64,000 nt of DNA from Rhipicephalus microplus (Eukaryota > Arthropoda > Arachnida > Ixodida > Ixodidae), in the NCBI RefSeq assembly GCF_043290135.1, contig NW_027464806.1, positions 124,001 through 188,000 of the forward strand. Direction: 5' to 3'. The notes under the pieces were generated by a model, which was not told the DNA's origin, did not search any database, and saw only the letters and a program-made list of their open reading frames with translations. Both the position numbers and the translations under genes were made by a program. Shown here one piece after another: positions 162-776 of the stretch (its first letter is position 1; each line of letters starts with the position of its first letter).

Positions 162-776
162 GATTTCACACAACACGCACGCGAGACCAGAGTCGAATGC
201 GCGTGTCCCCCCGTCTCGCCGCGCTTAAATATGAGCGAGGGGTGTTGACGAGATCAGCACAACGCGCGCGCCCCATTGGTTCGCACGGCTTCTCTCTCTC
301 ACACTCTCATCCGTTCCCCGCGAGCGGCGGCGCGCGATGGTGGCAACGGAAACCATTCGAGGATTCGCTCGCAGGATTTCAAGCTGGACGGTTGTGCCCT
401 CGCGATCTCCGACTTCAGCGTAGCTCCCGCCGACTGGTTCGCCCTCCGCGGTCTCCTGATGCCGTGTAGCTCTCGCATTGTGGCACCCCGCCCTTGGACT
501 GCTTCGACCGGATCCCCACTTTCCTATCTCCTTCTTTTTCCTCTCGTTGGCTGTCTTCTTCTGCTTCTACTTTCCTTCTATCCTTTTTATCCCTCCTTAA
601 CCCCACCCCTATAAGGCACTGCGCCGTGTCGCCTGAAGGCAGACAGAAATTAGGTGCCTTTTTCCTCTTCATTGTAACCACTACCACCACCACCATTCGA
701 GCACGGCTCTCATCTCAGAAGGCAGCAGCTTTCTTGTTTTCGGCAACCGGCGTCGTACCAAGCGAAAAGCAACACC
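162..776. promoter_or_regulatory. Divergent H2B/H2A promoter, unit 1 (interrupted)
   Basis: For H2B (-): TATA box TATTTAAG at 224-231 and initiator GCATTCGAC with its A at 198, 33 bp downstream of the TATA start. For H2A (+): initiator CCATTCGAG at 353-361 (A at 355), without a TATA box. One CCAAT box (275-279, read on the - strand) lies 77-81 bp from the H2B start and 76-80 bp from the H2A start. The retroposon 362-701 follows the first H2A initiator and ends in a second copy of it (693-701). The element positions are read from the sequence; the start sites are inferred. Confidence 0.75.
362..701 (+). mobile_element. SINE-like retroposon at H2A start site, unit 1
   Basis: This is a 340-bp insertion, including one target copy, found by comparison with the empty sites of units 2, 5 and 7. 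It starts GATTCGCTCGCAGG, has a pyrimidine-rich middle, then a conserved 3' part with the stem AAGGCAC...GTGCCTT, and ends in a (ACC)n tail. The flanking target duplication is ACCATTCGAG. It encodes no protein. No convincing Pol III A or B box is seen, so its promoter and class are unknown. The fixed 5' end suggests a full-length short element rather than a truncated LINE. This copy has the markers ATG (446-448), TATCC and GTAACC. Confidence 0.9.

Follow-up and report, generated by a model that had tools for sequence, protein, structure and literature searches.

The window, a 64-kb stretch of the 3.26-Gb genome of Rhipicephalus microplus, belongs to a tandem histone array in which each unit of about 10 kb carries the genes for H2B, H2A, H3, and H4. 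In the first unit, the H2A gene (777–1151, plus strand) and the H4 gene (5268–5579, minus strand) each lie downstream of a retroposon insertion and possess intact reading frames. The histone 3′ stem-loop at H2A was recognized with the Rfam model RF00032 at 27.5 bits (E = 1.8e-5), which is under the gathering score of 34. Inspection of the whole window by eye revealed no frame of 100 or more amino acids for the linker histone H1 in the units. A TATA-like box was seen by eye approximately 30 bp upstream of the CATTCG of H2B, and none was seen by eye at the starts of H2A or H4, where the predicted +1 position is defined by the CATTCG motif; the −45 to −1 string of H2A among the sequences inspected came from a filled copy. 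At 17157–17468 and at the matching places in other units, a frame in the spacer resembles, by eye, the terminal part of a LINE protein.

Nine copies of a retroposon of about 333 bp are present in the window, with 95.5–100% identity to the first copy in blastn alignments. Four copies are located at H2A starts on the plus strand (362–694, 20304–20638, 30438–30773, and 50039–50369) and four at H4 starts on the minus strand (5632–5964, 15446–15776, 25579–25907, and 55314–55641), and all eight are oriented in the sense of the gene. Alignment showed that the (ACC)n tail is joined straight to ATTCG in all eight copies and that empty sites occur beside the filled ones, at 10502 (10502–10520, plus strand), 40233, and 60168 for H2A and at 35713 (35713–35729, minus strand) and 45175 for H4. 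The duplication at H2A is ATTCGAG, which flanks the first copy at 355–361 and 695–701 and extends to 10 bp with the tail-ambiguous ACC, and that at H4 is ATTCG plus CTT, CTTT, or CTTTC. The target-site duplications (TSDs) of the H4 copies include ATTCGCTT, followed by GG, at 5632–5964, ATTCGCTTT at 15446–15776, and ATTCGCTTTC at 25579–25907, and the copy at 55314–55641 has a 5′ end without GAT. An earlier note on this DNA had described such copies at the predicted +1 of H2A and H4, in empty and filled forms side by side, and these observations were reproduced; of its H2A ranges, the copies stand and the ends do not, because the downstream duplication had been included (362–694 is the first element proper). 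In the window, no insertion was found at the H3 initiator (CAGTCG) or at the exact H2B initiator. The ninth copy (46149–46481, plus strand) is inserted at GGTC/GCAGCG in the spacer between H4 and the H2B of the next unit, with no clear duplication, at a site that is empty in five other units. Its surroundings are GC-rich and may mark an unrecognized promoter. In one unit, an open frame (20436–21095) extends from within the element into the coding region of H2A.

The element shows hallmarks of LINE-dependent retroposons, namely TSDs and (ACC)n simple-repeat tails. No tRNA gene was detected by ARAGORN at 340–720 of the window, and an Rfam search of 340–1300 at E values up to 1 returned the histone stem-loop only; a tRNA-headed Pol III SINE of the Ruka type was rejected on the basis of this missing tRNA-like head. 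Frames of about 110 amino acids cross the element, and its 5′ end is ATTCGCTCGCAGG. When scored against the generally known consensus sequences of the MTE and DPE core promoter motifs, the element possesses, besides an initiator-like motif at +1, an MTE-like match of 9/12 at +18 and a DPE match of 5/5 at +28. This pair occurs with the same spacing at 35 of the 64,000 window positions. Two other sites within the element also have MTE-like matches of 9/12, and the scores at the four histone starts are just 4–6/12 for the MTE and 3–4/5 for the DPE. In 25 of 35 copies, only Gs (one to four) lie between the TSD and ATTCG. Reverse transcriptase that copies the cap is known from L1 to leave extra Gs, and the extra Gs at the 5′ junction are therefore expected if a capped Pol II RNA was the template. 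From these features, we infer that the element may be transcribed by Pol II from its own ATTCG initiator.

On the genome scale, a 34-base pattern of the 3′ end gave 1,511 matches at up to three mismatches, and its reversed control gave none. One exact tail followed by CATTCG was matched 119 times in the genome. At the H2A start, the filled form CACC/ATTCG was counted 136 times, including one junction of the second element f2 described below, and the empty-reading form AACC/ATTCG 478 times, including at least one filled copy (L040, which has an AAACC tail). Loci L001–L008 were picked because of their identity to the copy in the window, L009–L038 for a tail followed by CATTCG, and this set is consequently biased to ATTCG junctions; the 30 loci of the latter group comprise 16 H4 starts, 13 H2A starts, and one locus that is H4-like upstream only, with other sequence downstream. 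Junctions at H4, H2A, and H2B were compared in 52 rows from the fetched loci, corresponding to 48 distinct copies because four were fetched twice. The rows contain 14 distinct 5′ junction strings at H4, six at H2A, and one at H2B, or about eight, three, and one, respectively, after merging of strings that differ only in the number of Gs or in a flank SNP, and the 3′ junction is constant at H2A and at H4. The H2B form, found in L014 and L033 (C6:177.146 Mb and C148:55 kb), has a 13-bp duplication, ACACGCGCATTCG, that covers the initiator, which points to a nick a few bases before the H2B initiator. Five head-to-tail double insertions were identified by coordinates, and one of them was read in sequence (L016). 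Of 52 records, 38 have a TSD of at least 6 bp, with one or two doubtful cases (e.g., L061), and 14 have no clear TSD. Target-primed reverse transcription, as established for R1 and R2, is recognized by a first nick at a constant position and a second nick at varying positions. At H4, the combination of 14 different 5′ strings with an unchanging 3′ junction argues for repeated insertions. The earlier note had suggested target priming from a first nick that is always at the same place, and this is supported by the fixed 3′ junctions, the variable 5′ junctions, and many independent hits at H2A and H4. Judged from these junctions, insertion has genuinely recurred at the histone start sites, which form a hot spot.

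The distribution of CATTCG and the copies outside the array bear on the question of whether this word is the target. A unit in which both starts are empty contains ten CATTCG on the two strands, and the eight window insertions with an ATTCG junction use only two of them; if the ten were equal, the chance of about 11 independent events on two alone would be 0.2^11. Dispersed copies were sampled as the first 50 exact 3′-end matches in listing order, 42 on C1 and 8 on C2, with histone-array places on C2 skipped and L039 added, so that the sample is a non-random one of the genome. ATTCG follows the tail in none of the 51 dispersed copies examined. Their targets follow a loose pattern only: position −1 is C or A in 35 of 38 targets, position +1 is T in 17 of these 38, and part of the C/A excess at −1 stems from the placing of the nick by tail phase. 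CATT opens the duplication in 6 of the 38. The specificity for the histone initiator word that had been put forward previously, with most genomic copies lacking CATTCG at the tail named as the refuting condition, is thus not supported in a family with 1,511 3′ ends: the dispersed copies and the mostly unused CATTCG motifs of the array speak against the word as the determinant, and a strictly site-specific element of the R1/R2 type was likewise rejected, as the copies are not confined to one site. To say that the element “inserts exactly at histone gene start sites” would describe the family as a whole too narrowly.

The surroundings of the dispersed insertions were also characterized. Flank GC content is 0.56 near the insertion (within 100 bp) versus about 0.46–0.47 far from it (27 of 30 loci, Wilcoxon p = 7e-6), and when repeat family X and L071 are left aside, the values are 0.55 and 0.46 (23 of 26 loci, p = 7e-5). 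Without the same loci, GAGAG occurs 34 times near the dispersed insertions against 15.6 expected. Near insertions, CCAAT is depleted (9 versus 17.5 expected) and ETS motifs are as expected (1 versus 1.3), both being small numbers. No significant enrichment of TATA was found at −30 of the dispersed sites, where strict TATAA is present at 2 of 21 loci and is matched by 3 of 32 background windows. At L064, a TATA box lies 29–31 bp upstream of the CAGTAG target, and in family X (L059, L062, L066, L082, and L085), TATAAGG was seen by eye about 30 bp before the middle of the insertion cluster. These TATA positions fit start-site targeting without proving it. The insertions into family X are several separate events, all in one sense, within about 50 bp. 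The copies at L055 and L061, read by eye, seemingly lie inside other repeats or coding sequence and not in promoters. The GC and GAGA peak and the unused CATTCG of the array are consistent with open start-site DNA as the target, the alternative raised in the earlier note. On these flank features, the element seems to favor places of transcription start over one fixed word, and its exact targeting to +1 across the genome is unproven.

A LINE with the same 3′ end, which the earlier note had anticipated, was found as f2. The 3′ end GGCACTGCGCC...CAGAAATTAGGTGCC...TAACCACTACC is common to the element and f2, and 40 of 781 first-look candidates for the f2 3′ end were scored. In L098, the f2 copy is preceded by an open frame that ends in VVFLDETGIVAYR and a stop, 160-odd bases upstream of the shared part. 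The 56-residue end of this frame has no Pfam match and is 30% identical over 56 amino acids (E = 2e-4) to the C-terminus of a LINE in L043 (6640–9901, minus strand), which possesses EN, RT, and RNase H domains and is located in a region of histone array near sequence that lies upstream of H3. This distant relative suggests a partner LINE of an I-like clade. By coordinates, one f2 3′ end at C6:10507729 runs straight into a filled H2A pattern at C6:10507732–10507708; an f2 copy ending at the H2A base implies that the same machinery reached the same base with another template. Twenty further f2 junctions share no common target word, and ATTCG adjoins none of them. In L097, L099, and L100 (C53, C40, and C26), a short f2-ended element is inserted at ACAGTCG in tandem repeats that apparently belong to one repeat family and that we take to resemble tRNA-Asn genes. 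In L098 and at C8:84.06–84.57 Mb, the LINE 3′ end is followed by AGTCGGCTGC, and the seven such ends within half a megabase perhaps mark a multicopy gene.

Several explanations of the histone insertions can be weighed against these data. If the LINE endonuclease read CATTCG (or CAKTCG), the histone starts would be hit merely as carriers of a multicopy word. The exact ATTCG junction at both H2A and H4, the LINE-type copies at C/AGTCG in L097, L098, L099, and L100, and an f2 copy at T/ATTCGG in L059 agree with such an endonuclease, but the absence of ATTCG from the dispersed junctions of the element and from the 20 f2 junctions, together with the use of two in ten CATTCG per empty unit, largely refutes it and leaves it quite improbable. 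The many array copies that are identical across the whole element, and the single junction class that accounts for 16 of 26 H2A rows, could instead reflect one or two early insertions per gene that unequal exchange and gene conversion then multiplied, with the junction variants as later damage. Such a history is similarly hard to credit, since the duplications at H4 end at six positions, two further classes are altered in the upstream flank but retain the 3′ junction, different tail subfamilies (GTAACC and CTAATC) occupy one site, and head-to-tail double insertions exist; one single amplified insertion was rejected in view of the variety of junctions. Guided reinsertion, as has been proposed for R1 and SART1, would proceed through a read-through RNA from a copy in a histone gene, ending in ATTCGAG or ATTCGCTT, that pairs with the corresponding site of a different unit. 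It would account for the base-precise 3′ junction at both genes, but the same subfamilies occur at H2A and H4, whose sequences diverge after ATTCG, and the dispersed insertions need no guide; we consider it unlikely.

The element is, in our assessment, probably a LINE-driven, Pol II-made, non-autonomous retroposon of about 333 bp that favors open promoter DNA and has a loose C/A(T)T nick site. In the proposed mechanism, Pol II would produce the element RNA from its own ATTCG initiator, as the MTE/DPE-like motifs downstream and the cap-derived Gs suggest, and the LINE that shares the 3′ end and the (ACC)n tail would move it. The LINE endonuclease may have a loose preference for C before the nick, often C/ATT, and could nick the template strand mainly at open promoter chromatin. 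The histone starts would then be hit repeatedly owing to a loose motif fit, hundreds of copies, and strong S-phase transcription, and the insertions could be tolerated since the majority of units remain free of them, as is the case for R1 and R2 in rDNA. A bolder extension, which we regard as possible but rather doubtful, is that the LINE/SINE pair uses target-primed reverse transcription to enter Pol II starts throughout the genome, nicking the opened template strand at +1 or close to it, with the histone genes as the hottest targets and the element's own 5′ end as an initiator, so that it would move from start to start.

The non-LTR retrotransposons R1 and R2 of 28S rDNA resemble this element in that they repeatedly enter a multicopy gene at a single base, with the units partly filled and a fixed 3′ junction (PMC3706591). 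Unlike R1 and R2, this short element has the Pol II start of a protein-coding gene as its target, and the majority of its copies are dispersed in other sites. Dada DNA transposons and other elements of multicopy small-RNA genes likewise exploit multicopy genes as safe targets, whereas Dada elements are DDE transposons with 6–7 bp duplications that target RNA genes, and the insertion described here is target-primed, directed to histone genes, and not strict (PMC3706591). Tf1 of fission yeast and TRE5-A of Dictyostelium also prefer promoters or a gene class over a word, but insert at a distance from the target, and the present element lies at the predicted +1 of H2A and H4 (PMC3706591). LINEs with internal promoters, including L1Tc with its Pr77, are transcribed by Pol II from the first base, as proposed here, and jockey, Doc, G, I, F, SART1, and TRAS1 possess a DPE at about +28 (PMC4748587). 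In contrast to these LINEs, the element is short and presumably non-coding, and its putative promoter is deduced from motifs. Ruka, a known tick SINE, is also a short retroposon, although it has a length of ~175–195 bp, a tRNA-related sequence, and Pol III promoters, and the present element is ~333 bp with no tRNA found by ARAGORN (PMC3160391). No earlier report of a histone-start retroposon was found in the open-access literature. The known precise targets of retroposons are for the most part simple repeats and RNA genes, and retroelements directed to promoters tend to insert some way off (PMC3706591). A target-primed element that repeatedly lands on the predicted +1 of replication-dependent histone genes would connect reverse transcription with the initiation of Pol II transcription, and its copies would provide a natural record of start sites.
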